From Natrialba sp. SSL1 (GTDB taxonomy: Archaea > Halobacteriota > Halobacteria > Halobacteriales > Natrialbaceae), in the NCBI RefSeq assembly GCF_001861355.1, contig NZ_MASN01000035.1:186001-250000 (forward strand): a stretch of 64,000 bases of DNA. Direction: 5' to 3'. Shown one piece after another: positions 5,536 through 63,002 of this stretch. The notes under the pieces are model-generated. The model saw nothing but the letters and a program-made list of their open reading frames with translations, had not been told where the DNA came from and made no database searches. The first letter of the stretch is position 1; every line of letters begins with the position of its first letter. The translations under genes and the position numbers were made by a program.

Positions 5536-5608
5536 GGCCCGTATTGGGCCGGAAAACGAACAATCAACCCTTATGTGCATGCGGTTTAAACTCCCGAACG
5601 TTACGGAG
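5536..5608 (+). promoter_or_regulatory. Leader/promoter region of the nuo operon
   Basis: The 245-bp gap after purE holds GGCCC-GTATT-GGGCC (5536-5550), a perfect 5-bp inverted repeat, and just before it a GGAGAG...CTCTCC pair. T-rich and A-rich stretches follow before the nuoA ATG at 5609. This must contain the promoter of the 10.5-kb complex I operon, but a single TATA box cannot be singled out with confidence. Confidence 0.3.
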
Positions 5609-6022
5609 ATGAACGATTGGATAGCGATCGGGGCGCTTGCACTCGTGGGAGTACTGATACCGCTCGGTATGATGGCGGTATCGTACCTTCTGCGCCCGAG
5701 TGTACCCGAAACGAGCAAACGTGCCACCTACGAGAGTGGCGAGATCCCGACCGGCGACACGCGCGTCCGGTTCAACATCCAGTACTACATGGTTGCGCTT
5801 CTGTTCCTCATCTTCGATATCGAAACCGTCCTCCTGTTTCCGTGGGCGGTCGTGTACCTGGATGCCGTCGAATCGGACGCCGTTTCGCTGCTCGAGATCC
5901 TCGGCCCAATGGTGCTTTTCGTCACGATCCTCCTCGTCGGACTCGCGTGGGCGTGGCGAAAGGGTGCGGTCCAGTGGGCACAGACACCTCGTCAGGTAGA
6001 AACCGAGCATAACCGACCATGA
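5609..6022 (+). CDS. nuoA: Complex I subunit A (NuoA-like)
   Basis: This 137-aa membrane subunit begins MNDWIAIGALALVG and has three predicted transmembrane helices. The conserved YESGEIPTG loop and FLIFDIETVLLFPW helix are typical of NuoA. It helps form the quinone chamber and the junction of the peripheral and membrane arms. It is the first gene of the operon and overlaps nuoB by ATGA (6019-6022). The start is set at the hydrophobic N-terminus; upstream in-frame ATGs would add an unlikely extension. Confidence 0.93.
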   Translation: MNDWIAIGALALVGVLIPLGMMAVSYLLRPSVPETSKRATYESGEIPTGDTRVRFNIQYYMVALLFLIFDIETVLLFPWAVVYLDAVESDAVSLLEILGPMVLFVTILLVGLAWAWRKGAVQWAQTPRQVETEHNRP

Positions 6023-6726
6023 GTAGCGACGAACCACGACAAACGATCTACGACAGCACAGCGCCGTCGACGGACACCCGCGACGCCCGAATCGGCGAGG
6101 GTGTCGACGACCGCTTCAACTCCAAGCTTCGCGAGGCGTTCGGCGCGTCGCCGTTCATCCTCACGAAGTTCGACGAGTTCATGAACTGGGTTCGCGGGAA
6201 CTCGATGTTCATGCTCCAGTTCGGGATCGCCTGCTGCAGCATCGAGATGATGCACACGTACGCGATCAAACACGACCTGGACCGCTTCGGGGCTGGCGTC
6301 CCCCGCGCTTCGCCGCGACAAGCCGACGTGATGATCGTCCCCGGAACGATCGTCTCCAAGTTCGGCCCGCGCATGAAGCGCGTCTACGACCAGATGCCCG
6401 AACCGAAGTTCGTCGTCGGCATGGGCTCCTGTACGATCTCCGGCGGCCCGTTCCAGGAGGGGTACAACGTCGTCAAGGGTGCCGAAGAGATCATCCCCAT
6501 CGACATTCACGTCCCCGGTTGCCCACCGCGACCGGAGGCGCTGCTCTACGGAGTCCTCAAACTCCAGGAGCGAATCAAGAACGGCGAGTCCTCGGCCGTC
6601 GTCGTCAAACCGTACGAACTCGAGGAGTTCGGCGACCTCCAGAAGGACGAACTCGTACAGAAACTCGCAAGCGAGATCGACGAGGACGACCTCGTCATGC
6701 GCTATAACTGGGCTGATTCACCATGA
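6019..6726 (+). CDS. nuoB: Complex I subunit B (NuoB-like, N2 cluster)
   Basis: NuoB binds the terminal [4Fe-4S] cluster N2 next to the quinone site. In this 235-aa protein the tandem cysteines are in GIACCSIEM, the third in MGSCTISGG and the fourth in VPGCPPRPEAL. A charged N-terminal extension of about 50 residues precedes the core, a common haloarchaeal feature. The gene overlaps nuoA and nuoCD by four bases each (ATGA), so translation is probably coupled. Confidence 0.96.
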   Translation: MSSDEPRQTIYDSTAPSTDTRDARIGEGVDDRFNSKLREAFGASPFILTKFDEFMNWVRGNSMFMLQFGIACCSIEMMHTYAIKHDLDRFGAGVPRASPRQADVMIVPGTIVSKFGPRMKRVYDQMPEPKFVVGMGSCTISGGPFQEGYNVVKGAEEIIPIDIHVPGCPPRPEALLYGVLKLQERIKNGESSAVVVKPYELEEFGDLQKDELVQKLASEIDEDDLVMRYNWADSP

Positions 6727-8399
6727 GCACGGGAACCGAAACAGAGCCCGAAGCAGAGCTCGCAGAGCCAGGGTCCGAAACCAACGAGGCTGCACTCGAG
6801 TCCCTGCTCGGTGAGCGCGCCATCGCGCGCGACGATCACCTGAACGCGCCGGGCTTCGTTATCAACCCGAACGACGTTCAGGACGTGCTCTCGGATCTGC
6901 GCGACGAGGCCGGTTACGACCACCTCTCGTGTGTTACCGCCCAGCAGTACGAGGATCGATACGAGTCGATCTACCACATGAAGAAGTTCGCTGACCCGAC
7001 CGACGAAGTCAGCATCGTCGTCCCGACGACGGTCGACGATCCGGTGAGCCAGAGCGCCGAGCCGGTGTTCCGGACGGCCGACTGGCACGAGCGAGAGGCG
7101 TACGATCTGGTCGGTGTCGAGTACGAGGATCACCCTGATCTGCGACGGATTCTCCTGCCGGAAACGTGGCAGGGCCACCCCCTGTCGAAGGACTACGATC
7201 AGGAGAAGCCACAGCTCGTCACGCTGACGGAGCACCAGAACCCGATTCAGCCGGACCATCACGACGCCGAGTCGGATACGATGTTCCTGAACATCGGGCC
7301 ACACCACCCGGCGACCCACGGCGTGCTCCACGTCAAGACGGTGTTAGACGGCGAGACGGTCGCCGACGTCGAGCCGGACATCGGCTACCTCCACCGCTGC
7401 GAGGAGCAGATGTGCGAGCAGGGCACCTACCGTCACCAGATCATGCCCTACCCGGACCGCTGGGACTACGTCTCGGCGGGCCTGCTCAACGAGTGGGCGT
7501 ACGCGCGTGTGATCGAGGATCTGGCAGACATCGAGGTTCCCGAGTACGCACAGATCATCCGAACGATGGGTGCGGAACTGTGCCGAATTGCCTCGCACAT
7601 GCTCGCGCTCGGAACGTTCGCACTCGACGTCTACGGCGAGTTCACCGCGACGTTCATGTACACGTTCCGCGACCGGGAGGTCATCCAGGACATTCTGGAA
7701 GATCTGACGGGCCAGCGGATGATGTTCAACTACTTCCGCGTCGGCGGTGTCGCCTGGGATCTGCCCGAACCGCGCGAGGAGTTCTTCGAGCAGACCCGCG
7801 AGTTCCTCAACGAACTCCCGGCGAAGGTCGGCGAGTACAACGACCTCATCACGGGCAACGAAATCTTCCAGACCCGCTGTATCGACACCGGTGTGCTGGA
7901 GCCCGAGGTCGCCAAAGATTACGGCTGTACCGGACCCGTCGCACGTGGCTCCGGCGTCGACTACGACCTGCGCCGTGACGATCCATACGGCTACTACGAA
8001 CAGCTCGACTGGGACGTCATCACGCGCGATGGTGCTGACAACTACGCGCGCGTCCTCTGCCGAATGGAGGAGGTCGAGGAATCCGCGAAGATCATCGAGC
8101 AGTGTCTCGATCTTCTCGAGGACTGGCCCGAAGACGAACGGGACGTACAGGCGAACGTCCCGCGCACGCTGAAGCCGGATGCTGGCACTGAGATCTACCG
8201 CGCCGTCGAGGGAGCGAAGGGTGAACTCGGCATCTACATCCGCTCGGACGGCTCGGACAAGCCCGGTCGATTCAAGATCCGGAGTCCGTGCTTCTCGAAC
8301 CTACAAGCACTCGAGGAGATGTCCGAAGGGGAGTACATTCCTGACCTGATCGCCTCGCTGGGCAGCTTGGACATCGTTCTCGGAGAGGTGGATCGATGA
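6723..8399 (+). CDS. nuoCD: Fused complex I subunits C and D (NuoCD-like)
   Basis: The 558-aa protein fuses the 30-kDa NuoC domain (about residues 20-170, ending in the REAYDLVGVEYEDHPDLRRI signature) and the 49-kDa NuoD domain (about 190-558). The NuoD half starts FLNIGPHHPATHGVLH, whose histidines line the quinone pocket, and ends LASLGSLDIVLGEVDR. No hydrogenase-type Cys pairs are present, as expected for complex I. It overlaps nuoB and nuoH by four bases. Fusion of C and D also occurs in some bacteria. Confidence 0.96.
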   Translation: MSTGTETEPEAELAEPGSETNEAALESLLGERAIARDDHLNAPGFVINPNDVQDVLSDLRDEAGYDHLSCVTAQQYEDRYESIYHMKKFADPTDEVSIVVPTTVDDPVSQSAEPVFRTADWHEREAYDLVGVEYEDHPDLRRILLPETWQGHPLSKDYDQEKPQLVTLTEHQNPIQPDHHDAESDTMFLNIGPHHPATHGVLHVKTVLDGETVADVEPDIGYLHRCEEQMCEQGTYRHQIMPYPDRWDYVSAGLLNEWAYARVIEDLADIEVPEYAQIIRTMGAELCRIASHMLALGTFALDVYGEFTATFMYTFRDREVIQDILEDLTGQRMMFNYFRVGGVAWDLPEPREEFFEQTREFLNELPAKVGEYNDLITGNEIFQTRCIDTGVLEPEVAKDYGCTGPVARGSGVDYDLRRDDPYGYYEQLDWDVITRDGADNYARVLCRMEEVEESAKIIEQCLDLLEDWPEDERDVQANVPRTLKPDAGTEIYRAVEGAKGELGIYIRSDGSDKPGRFKIRSPCFSNLQALEEMSEGEYIPDLIASLGSLDIVLGEVDR

Positions 8400-54616: not shown

Positions 54617-54774
54617 ACCGTTGCTCTGGTGTCGAGTCGAGATAGTCGTTGGGCTTCAGCGTGGCGACAGGCCGCGTTCGACACCGGCTGTCTCGGCTGT
54701 GACGCAGTGCAAAATACGTCAGCAACCCCGAAAACATGGCAATCCTTTTCCGCGGCGGTCAAGAATCCGAGGGT

Positions 54775-55158
54775 ATGACGGACGAAACCGAACCTGACAA
54801 CGGTAGCGACGGCGGCGACGAGGGCGAAGAGAAATCCTTCCGAGAGCGCGTCGAGGAAATCCGCGAGAAGCGCGCCGAAGAAGGCGAAGGCGAGGGTGAG
54901 CCCCCAGAAAGTCCGTTCGGTGGCGGCGGCCCCGGCGGCATGGGTGGCGGCGGCAACCCGTTCGCACAGATGATGGGCGGCATGATGGGCGGCGGCCCAG
55001 GCGGGCCGGGCGGCATGGGCGGCGGTCCAGGCGGCCCAGGCGGCAGCGAGGAGGTCGGCAACGAAGAACTCGTCCGCGAAGTTCGCCAACTGCGCGACGA
55101 GATGCGCGACCAGACGCGCGCGCTCAAGCGGATCGCTGACGCGCTCGAGGACAACTAG
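54775..55158 (+). CDS. Gly/Met-rich protein with two coiled-coil ends
   Basis: The 127-aa product has an acidic, charged helix (about 18-45), a Gly/Met/Pro-rich middle (about 50-92, with GGMGGGGNPFAQMMGG and GGPGGPGGMGG) and a C-terminal helix LVREVRQLRDEMRDQTRALK. The middle resembles the GGM tail of chaperonins. It may be a flexible linker or an oligomerising adaptor; no family function is recognised. Start at 54775. Confidence 0.78.
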   Translation: MTDETEPDNGSDGGDEGEEKSFRERVEEIREKRAEEGEGEGEPPESPFGGGGPGGMGGGGNPFAQMMGGMMGGGPGGPGGMGGGPGGPGGSEEVGNEELVREVRQLRDEMRDQTRALKRIADALEDN

Positions 55159-55272: not shown

Positions 55273-56286
55273 TTAGGCGCGCTCCGGTTCAGGGTCCGAG
55301 CCCGTTTCAGGTTCTGACTCCGACGGCGTCGTGTCGCGCGTTCCAGCGTCCGCGTTCGGTTCGGAACCGGAGGAACCGGATGAACCGGAGGACGAGCCCG
55401 GATTCGGATCCGCATCCGGTTTCGTGTCCGTGCCCGTGCCCGAACCCGTACTTCTACTCGTACTCGAGTCCCGGAGCGTTGCGATCCACGCCGTGACCGA
55501 CCAGCGGCCGACCAGCACGCCCGCGAGGACGACACAGATGTAGGCGAGGACGATGCCTGCGGCCACGTCGATCGCCCAGTGGATACCCAGGTACATCGTC
55601 GAAATCGCGACCGAGACGCCGAGACCGGTCGCGAGGAAGAACCACTTCGGATAGATCGCCCGGGTTCGGAACGCGAGGAACGTCACGGTTGCCGCAAGCG
55701 AGGTGTGCAGCGACGGGAAGACGTTCGTGTTCCGGTTGACCTGTCGCGTGAGGTGCTGATACTGGGGATACGTATCGTACAGCAGCGCGTCCACCAGTTC
55801 CGGCATCATGTTCCGCGGCCCGTAGGCGACGATGAAAACGTAGATCCCGAGTCCAAGCACGTAATTCAGCGTGTACGCCGTCAGGAGCTCGCGCAGCGGG
55901 CGCGTATTCGAGAGCGCGAAGTAGGCGATGACGGGGAAGACGAGCAAGAAGACGTAGCCGTAGATGTAGATGAACGAGAAGTACGCCGTGATCGCCGGCG
56001 CTTCGAACGACTGCAGCCAGAGGATGAACTCACCCTCGACGTCGTAGATCGGCCACGTGAGATTCCAGTGAATCATCCAGGAGACGTCGGGACCGTACTG
56101 TCTCGCGACGCTGTTGAACAGCAACACGGCAGCGAGGAGCGCCGTCACCGGTGCCGCCGCCCGAACGCGAGCGCGCCACTCGAGTCGCGTATCTCGCAGA
56201 CGGTAGCGACCGACGAAGACGGCAATCGAGACGAGCACCATGAGCGTGACCACGACGGTCAACTGGAGGAGGACTTGCGTTAGCAT
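55273..56286 (-). CDS. PAP2/AUR1-like membrane phosphatase (cassette 1)
   Basis: The 337-aa protein has about six to seven transmembrane helices and the PAP2_3 (inositol-phosphorylceramide synthase-like) catalytic parts: AYGPRNMMPE, VFPSLHTSLAAT (catalytic His) and YLGIHWAIDVAAGI (second His and Asp). It would remove or transfer a lipid phosphate head group at the membrane. The last 75 residues are an acidic Ser/Gly/Pro/Thr tract with GTGTDTKPDADPNPG. The ATG shares one base with the upstream solute-binding gene stop, so both are translated together. The partner PAP2 of cassette 2 is its paralogue. Confidence 0.9.
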   Translation of the reverse strand: MLTQVLLQLTVVVTLMVLVSIAVFVGRYRLRDTRLEWRARVRAAAPVTALLAAVLLFNSVARQYGPDVSWMIHWNLTWPIYDVEGEFILWLQSFEAPAITAYFSFIYIYGYVFLLVFPVIAYFALSNTRPLRELLTAYTLNYVLGLGIYVFIVAYGPRNMMPELVDALLYDTYPQYQHLTRQVNRNTNVFPSLHTSLAATVTFLAFRTRAIYPKWFFLATGLGVSVAISTMYLGIHWAIDVAAGIVLAYICVVLAGVLVGRWSVTAWIATLRDSSTSRSTGSGTGTDTKPDADPNPGSSSGSSGSSGSEPNADAGTRDTTPSESEPETGSDPEPERA

Positions 56287-58232
56287 CAGTGTCTCACCCG
56301 GAGGTTCCCGTCATCGTCGTAGCGCAGTCCCGCCTCCTCGAACGCGTCGCGTGCTGCCGCCACGTCGAGGTCGCCGTCAGTTCCGAGAAACGGCGTCTCG
56401 GGATCGGTCCCGTTCCAGGCGAGCGAGTCGGGGACCCACTCCTCGACGACCGGCGTCGCGATCGGCTCTGCGTAGCCGTGAAACACCTCTTCGACCAGGT
56501 GTTCCTTGTCGAGCAACTGGGCGACGACCCGCCTGAATCGCGGATTGGAGAACGGTGCCTTCCGCGCGTTGAACCCGACGTGGTAGAACGACCACGAGGG
56601 GGACTCGAGTACCGTCGTTTCCGGAATCTCCTCGTCGTCTTCGAACACGTCGTCGACGACGTAGGACTCGAGCGTCGAGAGCGTCACGTCGGCGCTGTCG
56701 CTCTCGACGAGTTCGATCGCAGACGTACTCCGCGGGTCGATCTGGATACGCAGGCGCTCGCTCGTCGGTTTGGGGAGGTCGACGCCGTCGCGGCGCGTGA
56801 AGTGCTCGTCGAAGCGCGCGAGGGTAACGTGCTCGCGGTCGGTTCGGTCCTCGAACTGGTAGGGACCGCTGCCGATTGGGGGCACGTTGTCGGTGACGAG
56901 CGCCTCGGTCGTCCCTTCGGCAACCGTGACGCCGCGGAGGCTCGCCTGGTCCGTGCGCTCGTCCCAGATGTGTTTCGGGAGGATCGGCACCGCCAGTGCA
57001 CGCTCGGCGACCGGCTGGCTCGTTGCAACGGTGAACTCGAGTTCGGTCTCGTTCACCTCGGTTACGTCGTCGATTGCGGCGACGTGGCCGCGGTAGTGGG
57101 GGGCCGGTGCGGAAAAGCGTCGACTGCCGCGGGTCGTGTCCGCGAGGAACTCGTAGGTGAAGGCGACATCCTCGGCAGTGAGCGAGGTTCCGTCGTGGAA
57201 CGCGCAGTCGTCCCGGAGAGTGACGGAGAGCGTCTCGTCGTCGGTCCACTCCCAGTCGGCGGCGAGCCAGGGCGTGAGATCAGGCGTTGCGTCCGGTTCA
57301 GCGGGGGTGTCGGTGTCGGCATCCGACTCCTCATCCCCATCCCCAACACCAACCTCGGCCCCGGCCCCACCGCCGTTAGCCGGCCACTGTGTTACCGCGA
57401 GCGGATCGTACAGCAGCCCGACGACAATATTTCGCTCGCGGTACTCCGCCGACAGCGGGTTCAGGTTCTGTGACGGTCGCGCATCCGTATTCACCGTCCG
57501 CAGTTCCGCCGCCGCGTCCTCGGACTGTGGCTCGAGGCCGAGATAGCCAAAGCGCGTCGCCGGATGTCCGTCTCCCCAGCCCTCGAACCGATCCGAGCGC
57601 GCGAGTCTGATCTCCGTCGGCCGACAGATCGGGATGAACGGCTGCTCGCGCGCAACCGACTCGAGTGTCGCTGTGATCGCGTCTTCGCGGTCGGTGTTCT
57701 CGTTGGTATCGTCGCCGTCTCCGTTTCCAGTCCCGCCCGCGGCGACTCGCTGTGCATCCAGTCGATCGTCGAGAGCCAGATTCGTCAGTCCGAAGGGGTT
57801 CTGCCAGCCGGCTTCCTCCGCGAAGCGCGAGTGGAGCAGTTCATAGAGGAAGTCCGGCGTCGTGTCGCCAGGGTGGGGGCCGACGTAGAGATCGAAGTCG
57901 TGGTTGACGAGGATCGCGCGCCGAAACTCCTCGTGTGAGAGCATATCGATCGCGATGTCGACGCCGACGGACTCGAGTGCGGAGCCGACGGCGCGGGCGA
58001 GCTGGATGCTTTCCCGGTCGCCGTCGGCGGGCACGGTGGAGATGGTCAGCGAGAGCGGTTCGACCTCGTCGCGGTTGACGATGCTCCGTACTTCGCGGAT
58101 ACAGCCGCTCGTCGAGACGGTGAGGCCGGCTGTCGCGGCGAGCATCGACCGGCGACTGAGACCGCTGCGAGCGGCGTCGTCGCTGGCGTGTGTGTGGTGT
58201 TCCGGGCTGGCTGACGGGGCGGGGTCGCTCAT
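56286..58232 (-). CDS. Tat-lipoprotein, SBP_bac_5-type solute-binding protein with permuted segments (cassette 1)
   Basis: The 648-aa protein has a twin-arginine signal (SRRSMLAATAGL, SRR at 26-28) with lipobox Cys 44 (STSGC). Residues about 60-225 match the normally C-terminal part of peptide/oligopeptide-binding proteins (ESIQLARAVGSALESVGVDI, FDLYVGPHPGDTTPDFLYEL, PFIPICRPTEIRLARSDRF). Residues about 243-648 match the normal N-terminal and middle parts (LNPLSAEYRERNIVVGLLYD, WLAADWEWTDDETL, FHDGTSLTAEDVAFTYEFL, PIGSGPYQFE) and stop at AGLRYDDDGNL. No permease or ATPase gene is near. Start at ATG 58232, after TTATATC at 58261-58268; GTG 58247 is an alternative. Confidence 0.87.
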   Translation of the reverse strand: MSDPAPSASPEHHTHASDDAARSGLSRRSMLAATAGLTVSTSGCIREVRSIVNRDEVEPLSLTISTVPADGDRESIQLARAVGSALESVGVDIAIDMLSHEEFRRAILVNHDFDLYVGPHPGDTTPDFLYELLHSRFAEEAGWQNPFGLTNLALDDRLDAQRVAAGGTGNGDGDDTNENTDREDAITATLESVAREQPFIPICRPTEIRLARSDRFEGWGDGHPATRFGYLGLEPQSEDAAAELRTVNTDARPSQNLNPLSAEYRERNIVVGLLYDPLAVTQWPANGGGAGAEVGVGDGDEESDADTDTPAEPDATPDLTPWLAADWEWTDDETLSVTLRDDCAFHDGTSLTAEDVAFTYEFLADTTRGSRRFSAPAPHYRGHVAAIDDVTEVNETELEFTVATSQPVAERALAVPILPKHIWDERTDQASLRGVTVAEGTTEALVTDNVPPIGSGPYQFEDRTDREHVTLARFDEHFTRRDGVDLPKPTSERLRIQIDPRSTSAIELVESDSADVTLSTLESYVVDDVFEDDEEIPETTVLESPSWSFYHVGFNARKAPFSNPRFRRVVAQLLDKEHLVEEVFHGYAEPIATPVVEEWVPDSLAWNGTDPETPFLGTDGDLDVAAARDAFEEAGLRYDDDGNLRVRH

Positions 58233-58260
58233 TAGGTCCGTTGCCACAGTTCGCCCGTGG

Positions 58261-58268
58261 TGATATAA
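58261..58268 (-). promoter_or_regulatory. Likely TATA box of SBP cassette 1
   Basis: TTATATCA on the minus strand lies 29-36 bases before the ATG at 58232 in the 93-bp gap between cassettes. This would give a transcript with a very short leader and lets cassette 1 be expressed separately. Confidence 0.5.
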
Positions 58269-58325
58269 CAGTATTGCGCTGCAGCGTCGCCCCGCGGAAT
58301 GTGTGGTGTCGACGCCGACGTCTCC

Positions 58326-59213
58326 TCAGACGCCGTCCTCTCCCTGCTCGCGGTCCGGTTCCGGTCCGGATGCAGTCTCGCCTCGTCCGGCGGCTCGCAC
58401 GCGCTCAACGGCAGTAGACAGCGACCAGCGGCCGACGAGATGCTTTGCGAGGACGACGCAGACGGCGGCGAGGACGAGGCCGGCGACCACGTCGATCGCC
58501 CAGTGGATACCGAGGTACATCGTCGAGATGATGACGCTCGTCGCGAGACCGACAGCGACAGGGAACCACGCCCGGTACTGGTCACGGGTCATGTAGGCGA
58601 AGATGGCGACGGTCGCCGACAGCGAGGTGTGCAGCGATGGGAAGACGTTCCGGTTCTGGTTGACCTCCGTTGTAAGGTGAATATACTCCGGATTCGCGTA
58701 GTAGAGGTGTGTCGCGTCCATCCCCTCGATCATAACGTTTCGCGGCCCGTAGGCGATCACGAGCAGGTAGAAGGCGAGCCCGATCACGTAGTTGAGTGAG
58801 TACGCCGTCAGCAGTTGGCGGAGGACGACGGTGTTCGAGAGCGTGACGTAGGCGACGATCGGAAATATCAGCACGAACGCGTAGACGTAGACGTACGCAA
58901 CCGAGAAGAACGTCGTCACTTCGGGTGTCGCGATCGATCGAAAGAGCAGGACGAAGTCGCCCTCGAGCGAGTAGAACACCTCGGTCATGTGTACTCCGTA
59001 CGCCTGCGAGATCTCGTACCCGTCCTGGCGCATGATCCGGTTGAGACCAAGAATCGCGGCCAGGAGGGCGAACGCGGGAGCGCTCTGGCGAAGCCGCGGT
59101 CGCCACTCGGTGCGAAGCGAGGCGAGTCGTTCGCGGCCGACAAAGACAGCAAGCGAGAGCACAAGCGCGAGCGCAACGACGAACGCGACTTGTGTGAGTA
59201 CTTGTACGAGCAT
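58326..59213 (-). CDS. PAP2/AUR1-like membrane phosphatase (cassette 2)
   Basis: The 295-aa paralogue of the cassette-1 enzyme has the same helices and motifs: AYGPRNVMIEGMD, NVFPSLHTSLSAT and YLGIHWAIDVVAGLV. Start MLVQVLTQVAF at 59213; a longer reading has no homology. The tail is short (GETASGPEPDREQ), unlike copy 1. It lies 11 bases after the stop of the second solute-binding gene. The conserved pair suggests function with the lipoprotein at the outer membrane surface. Confidence 0.9.
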   Translation of the reverse strand: MLVQVLTQVAFVVALALVLSLAVFVGRERLASLRTEWRPRLRQSAPAFALLAAILGLNRIMRQDGYEISQAYGVHMTEVFYSLEGDFVLLFRSIATPEVTTFFSVAYVYVYAFVLIFPIVAYVTLSNTVVLRQLLTAYSLNYVIGLAFYLLVIAYGPRNVMIEGMDATHLYYANPEYIHLTTEVNQNRNVFPSLHTSLSATVAIFAYMTRDQYRAWFPVAVGLATSVIISTMYLGIHWAIDVVAGLVLAAVCVVLAKHLVGRWSLSTAVERVRAAGRGETASGPEPDREQGEDGV

Positions 59214-59224
59214 GTGGAGTCGTG

Positions 59225-61201
59225 TTACCAGACCAGTGCGCCGTCGTCGTACTCGAAGTTCGATGCGAACAGCTCCCGCGCAGCGTCGACGTTGAGCTCG
59301 CCGTCCTCGCCCTCGAACGTCGTCACCAATTCGCCGTCGTCCCAGGCGAGCGAGTCGGGGACCCACTCCTCGGCGACCGGCGTCGCGACGGGCCGTGCGC
59401 TGTCCTCGGCGGCAAACACTTCCTCGGCGACCCACTGTTTGTCGACCAGTTGTGAGACCGCACGACGGAAGTGCGTGTTCCCACACGGCATGCTGCGAGT
59501 GTTGAATCCGATATGGTAGAACGACCACGACGGAGACTCGACGAACGAAACGGCATCGTCGTCGATCGTCGACTCGAGTGCGTACGTATCGAGTTGGGTT
59601 GTCGTAATATCGGCATCGCCGTTTGCGACCCGTTCGACGGACGAACTCGTTCCCGGATCGACCTCGAAGTGGAGTTCGTCGGCGGTTGGCGCTGGCAGGT
59701 CGTGATCGTCGTCCCGGAGCGTGAAGTGATCCTCAAAGCGCGTGAGCGTAACGGAGGTGCCTGCGTCGTGGGAGTCGTACTTGTAGGGGCCGCTGCCGGT
59801 CGGCGGCGCGTGGTTGCTCCTCACGATGCTCCAGTCACCCTGTGTCGGCGACAAGTCATCGTCTGCGGACTCGACACTGCTCTCGAGATGGGTGATCCAG
59901 GGCGAGTCCGGGCCGGCTGGAAGGATCGGCACCGTCAGCGCGCGCTCGGCGACGGCTCGGTCCGTCGAGAACGAGATCGTGAATCGGTACTCGTCCTCGA
60001 CGGTGACGGAGTCGACGGCGCTCACGTGGCCCTGATACCGTGGTGCAGGCGAGGCGCTCGCGGCGCGTCCGTACGTCGTGTCCGCGAGGAAGCGGTAGGT
60101 GAACGCAACGTCCTCGGCGGTGAGGGGGATCCCACTCTCGCTACCGTTGGCATCGCCACCGTCTGCGTCAGTGCCGTCGTCGGTGTGGTCGTGGAACGTA
60201 CAGTCCTCGCGGATGTCGACGGTCATGGTTCGGTTCTGGGCGTCCCACTCCCAGTCGGTCGCGAGCCACGGCTCGATCGAGACGTTTGCCGCGTCGATTA
60301 CTTCTTCGCCCGCTCGTGTCTCCTCATCTGTCGCTTCCGCCTCGTCGGGAACGGACCACGTTGGAACGGCGAGCGAGTCGTACAGCAGGTCGACGATAAC
60401 GCGTTGCTCGTGTGTCGTCGGAGAAAGCGGGTTGAAGGTCTGGGCCAGGCGCTGGTCCGTGACGAGTGCGTGAAGCTGTTCGGTGTCGGACGACGCGTCG
60501 GACTCGAGTCCGAGGTAGCCGTTGCCGGTCGTGAGGTAGTTCTCGTCCCAGCCGTCGAATCGGTCCGTTCGAACGGCTCGGTACTCGTTCGACACGCAGA
60601 TCGGCTCGAACGGCTTTTCCTGTGCGATCCCCTCGAGCAGTGTTGCGATGGTCCGTTCGCGGTCAGCACCGGTCTCCGTGCGCTGGCGCTCGAGCAACCG
60701 ATCGATTGTCAGCGTGTCGGTGAAGCCGAACGGGTTCTGCCACCCCTGGTCGTATTCGTACGTCGAGTGCAGCGTCTCGTAGAGAAAGTCCGGATCGAAG
60801 TCCGCAGGGTGGCGGCCAACGTAGAGATCGAAGTCGTGATCGATCAGGATCGCCTCCAGAAACTCGGATTCGGAGCGAGTGCTGATCGTCGCGTCGATGC
60901 CGACTGCCTCGAGGTTTGCCTCGAGATGGCGTGTGATTTCGGCAGTCTCTCTGTCCCCGTCGGCAGCGGGGAGCGAAAGGATAGAGAGCGAGACTTGTTC
61001 GGCGGCGTCGGAGTCGACGACGCTCTGGACGCGGTCGATACAGCCGCTCGCAGCGACCGAGAGACCGGTCGCACTGGCGGCGAGGAGCGACCGGCGGCTG
61101 TAGCCGGTGGTTGCGTCGGCGTCGGTGTTGACATTGGCGTCAGTGTTGACGTTGGCGTCGGGGCTAGTGTTGGTGTCAACGTCGTTGGACGGCAAACTCA
61201 T
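59225..61201 (-). CDS. Tat-lipoprotein, SBP_bac_5-type solute-binding protein with permuted segments (cassette 2)
   Basis: The 658-aa protein mirrors the cassette-1 SBP. A Tat signal (YSRRSLLAASAT) and lipobox Cys 54 (AASGC) follow an N-terminal NVNTDANVNTDAD tract. The normally C-terminal segment comes first (ETAEITRHLEANLEAVGIDA, FDLYVGRHPADFDPDFLYET, KPFEPICVSNEYRAVRTDRF), then the normal start (FNPLSPTTHEQRVIVDLLYD, WLATDWEWDAQNRTMTVDI, FHD, LTAEDVAFTYRFLADT) to the hinge near DGALVW. Start ATG 61201; GTG 61210 possible. PAP2 copy 2 follows after 11 bases. Confidence 0.87.
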   Translation of the reverse strand: MSLPSNDVDTNTSPDANVNTDANVNTDADATTGYSRRSLLAASATGLSVAASGCIDRVQSVVDSDAAEQVSLSILSLPAADGDRETAEITRHLEANLEAVGIDATISTRSESEFLEAILIDHDFDLYVGRHPADFDPDFLYETLHSTYEYDQGWQNPFGFTDTLTIDRLLERQRTETGADRERTIATLLEGIAQEKPFEPICVSNEYRAVRTDRFDGWDENYLTTGNGYLGLESDASSDTEQLHALVTDQRLAQTFNPLSPTTHEQRVIVDLLYDSLAVPTWSVPDEAEATDEETRAGEEVIDAANVSIEPWLATDWEWDAQNRTMTVDIREDCTFHDHTDDGTDADGGDANGSESGIPLTAEDVAFTYRFLADTTYGRAASASPAPRYQGHVSAVDSVTVEDEYRFTISFSTDRAVAERALTVPILPAGPDSPWITHLESSVESADDDLSPTQGDWSIVRSNHAPPTGSGPYKYDSHDAGTSVTLTRFEDHFTLRDDDHDLPAPTADELHFEVDPGTSSSVERVANGDADITTTQLDTYALESTIDDDAVSFVESPSWSFYHIGFNTRSMPCGNTHFRRAVSQLVDKQWVAEEVFAAEDSARPVATPVAEEWVPDSLAWDDGELVTTFEGEDGELNVDAARELFASNFEYDDGALVW

Positions 61202-61746: not shown

Positions 61747-63002
61747 TCAACTGTCGGCGGTTGGCCGATAGCCGTCGTCGTTCAACGTCCCACCATTTAT
61801 ACGCACGTCTACTGGTGCGTCTGCGCTCCCCGACGTGGGCGAGGAACGCAGTCTGTGTTGTCGCTTCCGCATATACCGCAGGCCGACGTTTTTCGCGCCG
61901 TTGTAGTCAGCGTTGATCTCGTACCCGCATTTGAGGCACTGGAACTGCTCGCCGTCGCGGTTATCCTTGTGAGTGAAGCCACAGTCAGTGTGTGAACACC
62001 GCTGGCTCGTGTGATCTGGCTCGACCTGTTCAACCGCGACACCGCAGTCCGGCGCTTTGTACTCAACGTACTCGACAAGACGACGGAACGCCCAGATGTG
62101 ATGCCAGTCAGCGTGAGGCAGTCGCTCACGGATATCGGTCAAGTCCTCGAACACGATCACGTCGCACTCGTGGTCAACTGCTTCGTCAACGATCTCGTTG
62201 GCGACTGTGTGGATATACTGTTTGCGCCATGCTCGTTCTCGCTTTCCAAGCCGAAGCAAGGCGTTGTGAGCGGCTTGTGTCCCACGCTGTTGCATCTCTG
62301 CTCGGCGTTTTTCAAACTCCTGTATCCAGTGGTCGTACTCCTCACCACTCCAGAACGTGCCTGTTGACGCGACGGCAAGGCTATTCACGCCGAGGTCGAT
62401 CCCGAGGACTGTCTGGTGCCCGGTATCGTCCGAACCCTCAATTTCAACAGCTTCACCGTCTGTGCCTATCTTCCGTGTTTTAACGTGGAAGTAGAACTCG
62501 TCGGTGCTTGGTCGTACTGGAGTGTACTCGTCCGAAACTCGTAGTCATCCGCAAGGACGTACTCCTCGTATGGTGTTGGACTGTCTGCTGGGAGTTCAAA
62601 ATCACACTCGATGCGTCCGTTCACCGTCGAGAGTGAGATTTTGTTGCGGTAGAATGTCGCGCTCCGCTTGTCGTAGACCATACTCCAAGAGGTAAACTCT
62701 GGCTTGTTCGTCCGTTTGCCTTTCTTCCAGCGGTCAACACCACTATCGACGGCGTGAACGGCACGCCGGATGGCTTCTTGGACGAGATTCGCTGTCAGGT
62801 CAGTTTCCTCGCGGAGTCGGTTATACAAAGCATCTCTGGCTTTCACGTTCGAGGTGACGCAGTCTTCGTAGTCGGTGTTGTCCCAGCAGTAGTCACTGGC
62901 CTCGTTCGCGCAGTAGAGGAACTGGTCAGCAGTTTCGTGGAGGTCGTCGTGATACTCGTCGGGAACAACGAGTTTGACCGGCGCAGTTCGTCTGACCTCC
63001 AT
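61747..63002 (-). pseudogene. tnpB: TnpB RNA-guided nuclease, frameshifted
   Basis: The N-terminal part reads MEVRRTAPVKLVVPDEYHDD to about 62511 and the C-terminal part from about 62508 to 61747. The frames join if one base is added near 62510 ([20 protein letters not shown]). All catalytic parts are intact: RuvC Asp in [13 protein letters not shown], Glu in [12 protein letters not shown], Asp in [15 protein letters not shown], and the zinc knuckle [15 protein letters not shown] ... CLKCGY. Full length would be about 418 aa. The break is a single-base deletion, so decay is recent, or the read is wrong. Confidence 0.85.

Follow-up and report, generated by a model that had tools for sequence, protein, structure and literature searches.

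An inherited pairing of a circularly permuted SBP_bac_5 protein with an AUR1-like PAP2 membrane protein in haloarchaea

Introduction

In the excerpted reports on which we draw here, the orphan lipoproteins LpqZ and FecB, which resemble substrate-binding proteins (SBPs), co-immunoprecipitate with AftA and AftB, respectively (PMC12802301), and the mycobacterial lipoprotein LpqW is described as acting at a branch point to steer the synthesis of membrane lipoglycans (PMC3229680, PMC10928101, PMC12421883). The yeast inositol phosphorylceramide synthase AUR1, according to an account likewise available in excerpt, works with a regulatory subunit, Kei1 (PMC10287731). Here we describe a locus of the haloarchaeon Natrialba sp. 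SSL1 in which genes for an SBP and for an AUR1-like membrane protein of the PAP2 type are arranged in two tandem cassettes. The locus lies in a stretch of 64,000 nucleotides (assembly GCF_001861355.1, contig NZ_MASN01000035.1, positions 186,001 to 250,000), hereafter the window, to which the coordinates of the two cassettes refer.

Results

The SBP and PAP2 genes form an inherited, co-diverging unit without a linked transporter. As a first-pass annotation of this DNA had it, SBP and PAP2 genes, two of each, alternate along the minus strand, all four being present and transcribed in the order SBP (61201-59225), PAP2 (59213-58326), SBP (58232-56286) and PAP2 (56286-55273). The upstream cassette encodes an SBP of 658 amino acids (aa) and a PAP2 protein of 295 aa whose gene begins 11 bases past the SBP stop, and the downstream cassette an SBP of 648 aa (with an alternative GTG start at 58247) and a PAP2 protein of 337 aa whose start ATG shares one base with the SBP stop codon (TGATG); both spacings had been given correctly. 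The SBPs score 146.1 bits (upstream) and 168 bits (downstream) with the Pfam family SBP_bac_5 (PF00496; curated cut-off 32.4), and the PAP2 proteins 63.9 and 62.9 bits with PAP2_3 (PF14378; curated cut-off 27). A third cassette of the same genome is found on contig C39 (L015: SBP 5589-7376, PAP2 7501-8376), and at E 0.01 there is one other PAP2 match only, a weak one on contig C30.

To follow the pair in other genomes, we used the best 80 of 266 confirmed matches, which yielded 76 haloarchaeal loci with 99 PAP2 genes and, with the three of the window genome, a set of 102. An SBP gene lies directly upstream of PAP2 in 101 of them; in the lone exception (L064) two genes intervene, one for the membrane protein MEM described below and, between it and the SBP, one for a DUF6517 lipoprotein (5766-6587). 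The SBP stop and PAP2 start codons overlap in 64 of the 101 adjacent pairs and the gap is at most 30 bases in 99, suggesting that translation of the two may be coupled. A survey of 145 genomes of the class, made from profile listings of 150 PAP2 and 150 SBP matches with presence tables compiled by hand, gave a similar picture: among the 123 listed PAP2 matches of at least 250 bits, a line chosen after inspection of the score list, 116 were paired by coordinates and three more on re-reading of the DNA (119/123). The homologues are thus paired, as the adjacency check proposed with the first-pass annotation had anticipated, and chance adjacency or a local oddity is ruled out by this class-wide pairing. 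Fusion of the two genes was also considered and rejected, no open reading frame matching both profiles. The unpaired PAP2 proteins, namely four matches of at least 250 bits (L098-L101) and all 27 weaker ones among the matches listed, seem to represent another subfamily. Conversely, 34 of the 150 listed SBP matches have no PAP2 gene directly downstream by coordinates; three are partial matches of true pairs, 15 are tandem second SBPs less than 6 kb from a PAP2 gene and 16 lie elsewhere. Eight of these last loci were read, five of which proved to be importer operons and three solitary SBPs; a further locus, L016, was read as well.

The pair was duplicated as a unit, as had been proposed: the window copies are paralogues, 43% identical between the SBPs and 55% between the PAP2 proteins, and the SBP and PAP2 trees (quick searches, with long branches flagged) agree. 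In two-cassette loci of the Natrialbaceae, upstream copies mostly group together and downstream copies likewise in both trees, the upstream SBP of the window clustering with the upstream copies of other Natrialbaceae. Patristic distances of SBPs and PAP2 proteins are correlated over the 101 pairs (r 0.90). Among the 48 genes that lie in two-cassette loci, r is 0.895 for true partners, against a mean of 0.12 and a maximum of 0.36 for 500 random within-genome swaps of partners and 0.70 when all partners are swapped at once. Gene order in the flanks is partly conserved within the Natrialbaceae; outside this family the neighbours turn over while the pair stays, and nothing constant that might hint at a substrate was recognised there except MEM. 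Nor was a conserved glycosylation gene recognised beside the pair, most neighbour clusters being without a family name.

That no ABC (ATP-binding cassette) permease or ATPase is encoded nearby was borne out in relatives, where permeases are not part of the cluster. An Opp-type permease gene occurs in the flank of one of 78 PAP2-holding loci (the 76 fetched and two of the window genome), and this one (L054) belongs to a separate operon on the other strand with its own SBP. In the window genome, the places of SBP_5 genes and of DppB-type permease genes coincide (C1, C18, C27, C37, C43, C60, C61), and the only SBP_5 genes without a nearby permease are the three linked to PAP2. Service to an orphan importer was considered and rejected, no SBP-less DppB-type permease being found in this genome; an importer shared with another SBP might conceivably be served.

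The SBPs are circular permutants. In the downstream SBP, the last ~400 residues match positions 2-285 of the SBP_bac_5 profile, and the N-terminal fragment matches positions 291-362 of 368 (E 0.014, weak alone) as well as residues 426-535 of MbnE; the N-terminal fragment of the upstream SBP matches profile positions 296-363 (E 0.00061, likewise weak alone). In the window SBPs, the part that ends a normal SBP makes up the N-terminal ~180 residues: in the downstream protein, residues 57-236 (57525..58064) correspond to this part, and residues 241-648 (56289..57512) to the N-terminal part of a normal SBP_5. Rotating the downstream SBP to the normal order produces one continuous match (positions 2-362, E 1.8e-53) and raises its score from 168 to 182 bits, and rotating the upstream SBP produces one stretch (2-363), with a rise from 146.1 to 156.2 bits. 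In an AlphaFold2 model of the downstream SBP (mean predicted local distance difference test, pLDDT, 85.9), residues 238-648 superpose on residues 1-330 of the 494 of NikZ (Z 23.4, root-mean-square deviation 3.7, 325 aligned), and AccA-type binders of sugar phosphates also resemble it in structure. Two block profiles found the permuted order in all 114 SBPs of loci L015-L093, against the usual order in control SBPs of the same genome from L006, L007 and L009 and no second block in those from L008 and L010. Given this block order, the PAP2-linked SBP is a permuted derivative and not a standard member of SBP_bac_5.

The permutation is not confined to SBPs linked to PAP2. SBPs linked to importers are likewise permuted (L016, L054, L104-L107, L109, L111-L113 and, outside the class, L110), and they form the sister group of the PAP2-linked SBPs (branch support 100% by the SH-aLRT, the Shimodaira-Hasegawa-like approximate likelihood ratio test). 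Permuted SBP_5 genes head or sit in complete peptide-type ABC importer operons in L016 (6559-8292), L104-L107 and L109-L113. The importer closest to this sister clade is present in 14 of the 91 genomes that hold the pair. Among the matches listed in a survey of the phylum, only the C-terminal block is covered outside the class, save in an importer-linked gene of G244. The likeliest history, as suggested by these comparisons, would be the recruitment of a permuted importer SBP to PAP2.

Each window SBP carries a twin arginine and a lipobox cysteine (R36-R37 and Cys54 upstream, R27-R28 and Cys44 downstream). Structure-based alignments covered 74 of 113 SBPs and 70 of 102 PAP2 proteins; in the former, the residues of the Tat (twin-arginine translocation) and lipobox motifs (R27, R28, G43 and C44 in the numbering of the downstream SBP) are invariant in 74/74 sequences, suggestive of an SBP anchored by lipid on the outer face of the membrane.

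The PAP2 partner resembles AUR1 in fold and in motifs. The best structural match of an AlphaFold2 model of the upstream PAP2 protein (mean pLDDT 91.0) is AUR1 (Z 19.6, 214 aligned, 2.9 A), followed by LpxE as the next family (Z 16.6), glucose-6-phosphatase (Z 14.0) and PgpB (Z 13.3). Its FPSLH and STMYL-x2-H-x3-D motifs align with those of AUR1. PSGH and SR-x5-H-x3-D are the signature of PgpB-type phosphatases, and alignments with PgpB and YodM place PSLH and ST-x5-H-x3-D at these sites, pointing to transferase-type chemistry as the probable activity of the enzyme. By sequence score alone, PgpB and YodM (E 7.5e-06 to 7.8e-06) rank above AUR1 (E 0.003). Residues R158, P192, S193, L194, H195, T231, H237 and D241 are invariant in 102/102 PAP2 proteins. 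In all 70 aligned sequences, lysine plus arginine is richer in the loops opposite the active site, and the predicted active site should therefore face outwards; together with the invariance of the Tat and lipobox residues of the SBP, this would put both parts on the outer side of the membrane.

A further gene accompanies the pair. MEM is a membrane-protein family without a name, characterized by an LWPYTSR motif, whose alignment, judged by eye, suggests an N-terminal extracellular domain and several membrane segments. The MEM gene, directly upstream of the pair in 26 genomes, takes this place in many loci outside the Natrialbaceae, stands between SBP and PAP2 in L064 and adjoins the separated PAP2 genes of L099 and L100. 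It was found in 89 of the 145 genomes, 86 of which also hold the pair; three genomes have MEM only, five the pair only and 51 neither (phi 0.88). Outside family f1 the corresponding numbers are 51, 3, 3 and 51 (phi 0.89), against a phi of -0.03 between the pair and rhodopsin, a control family of similar frequency. The Fisher test applied to these presence data takes no account of relatedness among the genomes. MEM follows the pair in all eight genera in which, among the genomes listed, the pair is present in some and absent from others, and the three MEM-only genomes do possess an SBP and a PAP2 relative, located apart. Given this co-occurrence, MEM is probably a further part of the SBP-PAP2 system, which would then be three-part rather than two-part.

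What MEM resembles is less telling. It had no credible match in the PDB (best E 0.41) and none in NCBIfam, most members are not recognised by Pfam, no match to any known transporter family was obtained, and unlinked MEM genes have no conserved surroundings (best clusters, 3 of 18 loci). Bacterial LssY proteins may join an LssY_C domain to PAP2, a bacterial LssY-PAP2 link that the literature search did not turn up. LssY_C (PF14067) has only three matches in the 145 genomes (E 0.002-0.008), all inside MEM genes (G004, G092, G144). The best scan of a MEM gene reached 20.7 bits (E 0.00033), below the cut-off of 25 bits, and none of the 12 aligned MEM members was matched; membership of MEM in LssY_C was thus set aside as weakly supported.

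As to the remaining features of the locus, the downstream cassette is preceded by a conserved block on the minus strand (58262..58288) with a TTATAT element at 58268-58263, in keeping with the TATA box earlier ascribed to this cassette; its promoter function is suggested by conservation. The block is identical in the window, L018 and L019, that is, in three Natrialba species, L019 diverging further upstream; Natrialba hulunbeirensis and N. chahannaoensis are the nearest named relatives. An IS605-type TnpB remnant in two frames lies just upstream of the cassettes (61747-63002, minus strand); its second piece matches a TnpB/Cas12f-like zinc domain and the first piece no Pfam family. On the other side, a gene on the plus strand (54736-55158) for a small acidic Gly/Met-rich protein without a Pfam match converges on the downstream PAP2 gene, and similar genes adjoin the cassette in other Natrialbaceae loci.

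Discussion

We put at about even the chances that the genes described here encode a conserved haloarchaeal surface system, with the SBP either binding ligand as a subunit of an AUR1-like enzyme or regulating that enzyme. A Tat-exported, lipid-anchored permuted SBP, descended from permuted ABC-importer SBPs and since released from importer service, would sit on the outer face beside an AUR1-type PAP2 protein with an outward active site, coupled translation providing for matched amounts of the two. The SBP would bind an extracellular or membrane-surface ligand and then either present it to PAP2 as substrate or switch PAP2 on, upon which PAP2 would act on a membrane lipid or a polyprenyl carrier, transferring or removing a phospho-head-group; MEM, with its extracellular domain, would be a further subunit. 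Physical contact between SBP and PAP2, the identity of ligand and lipid and the direction of control are assumptions of this scheme, in which ligand sensing may be coupled to head-group exchange. A bolder version, which we advance more tentatively, is that of a three-part archaeal surface machine made of a permuted SBP lipoprotein, an AUR1-like transferase and MEM that responds to an external ligand by remodelling membrane lipids or surface molecules linked to lipid, the SBP having moved from an importer to a lipid enzyme that it controls or supplies with substrate.

The first-pass annotation had envisaged a two-part surface system combining a membrane-anchored ligand-binding protein with an AUR1-like lipid phosphatase. 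Its surface location agrees with the Tat and lipobox residues (74/74) and the predicted orientation of PAP2, and its likeness to AUR1 with the motifs and the structural match; "two-part" probably gives way to three-part with MEM, and "phosphatase" is at odds with the transferase motifs found in place of PSGH and SR. The binding protein is an SBP_bac_5 lipoprotein, to be redescribed as circularly permuted and as having its nearest relatives in the service of ABC importers. The trees of the two partners, whose comparison had been suggested, are congruent. The permutation, the AUR1-type motifs, the third cassette of the genome and MEM, which lies outside the window, had not figured in the annotation.

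Several observations weigh against the system as we picture it. A second SBP without a second PAP2 is found in nine Natrinema/Haloterrigena loci and one Halovivax locus, the second PAP2 being missing and the second SBP kept in SBP-PAP2-SBP loci L027-L029, L031, L032, L034, L036, L042 and L044; strict one-to-one stoichiometry is therefore not required everywhere. The SBP stands apart from PAP2 in G033 and G141, which belong to one genus, and in G136. MEM is unlinked in the window genome (C30:278527-280155) and in most other Natrialbaceae examined, and the pair occurs without a detected MEM in five genomes. The structural comparison spans SBP residues 218 onwards, the N-terminal third being assigned by sequence only. 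Finally, nothing was found in print on the contact, ligand, product or phenotype of such a system; at the level of search listings, the literature yielded no account of the SBP-PAP2 pair, the MEM family or natural permutation in an SBP_5.

Alternatively, PAP2 might recycle carriers by simply dephosphorylating polyprenyl (di)phosphates or lipids, while the SBP would bind the freed sugar or peptide and serve the assembly of surface glycans as chaperone or sensor. Such lipids are the substrates of PgpB and LpxE, both structurally related to PAP2, and mycobacterial LpqW is described in the excerpted reports as affecting lipid-linked glycan flux (PMC3229680, PMC10928101). The phosphatase-type PSGH and the SR arginine of the PgpB alignment are, however, absent from PAP2, and no glycosylation gene was recognised as conserved beside the pair, with the qualification that most neighbour clusters are unnamed. 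We consider this explanation unlikely, at perhaps one chance in several.

Slightly less probable in our view is extracellular scavenging, in which the SBP would catch a phosphorylated solute, PAP2 would dephosphorylate it at the membrane surface and an unlinked importer would take up the product. That PAP2 enzymes include some with soluble substrates, such as the structurally matched glucose-6-phosphatase, and that AccA-type sugar-phosphate binders are related to the SBP in structure, would fit such a role. The active-site motifs and the best fold match are nevertheless of the AUR1 type and not of the PhoN or G6Pase type, the pair has no adjoining transporter, and the co-occurring MEM resembles no known transporter family.

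The SBPs might also be spare binding proteins for an ABC importer, or for several, with genes at other places in the genome, PAP2 being merely co-transcribed. SBPs can share importers, and permuted SBPs of the sister clade stand at the head of complete importer operons. Against this, every DppB-type permease place of the window genome already has an SBP, 14 of the 91 pair-holding genomes have the importer nearest to that clade, and the pairing throughout the class, the overlap of codons and the co-divergence of SBP and PAP2 would be left unexplained; we regard this as improbable. Neutral operon inertia, whereby the two genes would be neighbours by descent with no shared function, could account for the partly conserved gene order of Natrialbaceae flanks but is strongly disfavoured by the persistence of the pair outside this family where the flanks turn over, by its duplication as a unit and by the tracking of the pair by MEM in all eight genera of mixed presence among the genomes listed.

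If the SBP does serve as a subunit or regulator of the AUR1-like enzyme, haloarchaea would have recruited a nutrient-binding protein, here in permuted form, to an envelope enzyme independently of the similar step in mycobacteria, and repurposed orphan binding proteins would emerge as a theme across domains. In a large share of haloarchaeal genera, the pair would further offer a concrete route, open to genetic tests, into a step of archaeal lipid or surface chemistry. With one sister group still at work in ABC importers, the permuted SBP family is also a natural experiment on how far a fold tolerates rearrangement.

The PAP2-linked SBPs share their Pfam family and fold with SBPs of the DppA/OppA/NikA type and their permutation with the importer-linked haloarchaeal SBPs, from which they differ in having PAP2 in place of permease and ATPase. 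LpqW has an SBP_5-type fold; it differs from the haloarchaeal SBP in being bacterial and in that the pathway partner named in the excerpted reports is the mannosyltransferase PimE, not a PAP2 protein. The haloarchaeal PAP2 is like AUR1 in its motifs and in its best structural match, and AUR1, too, works with a regulatory subunit, Kei1, which is not known to be an SBP; archaeal lipids being different from those of yeast, the substrate and acceptor of PAP2 must differ from those of AUR1. Closest in arrangement are LpqZ and FecB, which, as far as the excerpted report goes, are, like the haloarchaeal SBP, SBP-derived lipoproteins without a transporter that are tied to an integral-membrane envelope enzyme. 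By the same partial account, they come from other SBP families (LpqZ being ProX-like), their partners are arabinosyltransferases, no permutation is reported for them, and their contacts are documented by co-immunoprecipitation, whereas the haloarchaeal pair is known from genetic linkage alone. Since the linked enzyme is a PAP2_3 protein and not an arabinosyltransferase, the haloarchaeal SBP would work like the LpqZ/FecB group without being a member of it. Orphan SBPs that serve envelope enzymes are thus already known, and the three-part archaeal form would go beyond them if its mechanism is borne out.

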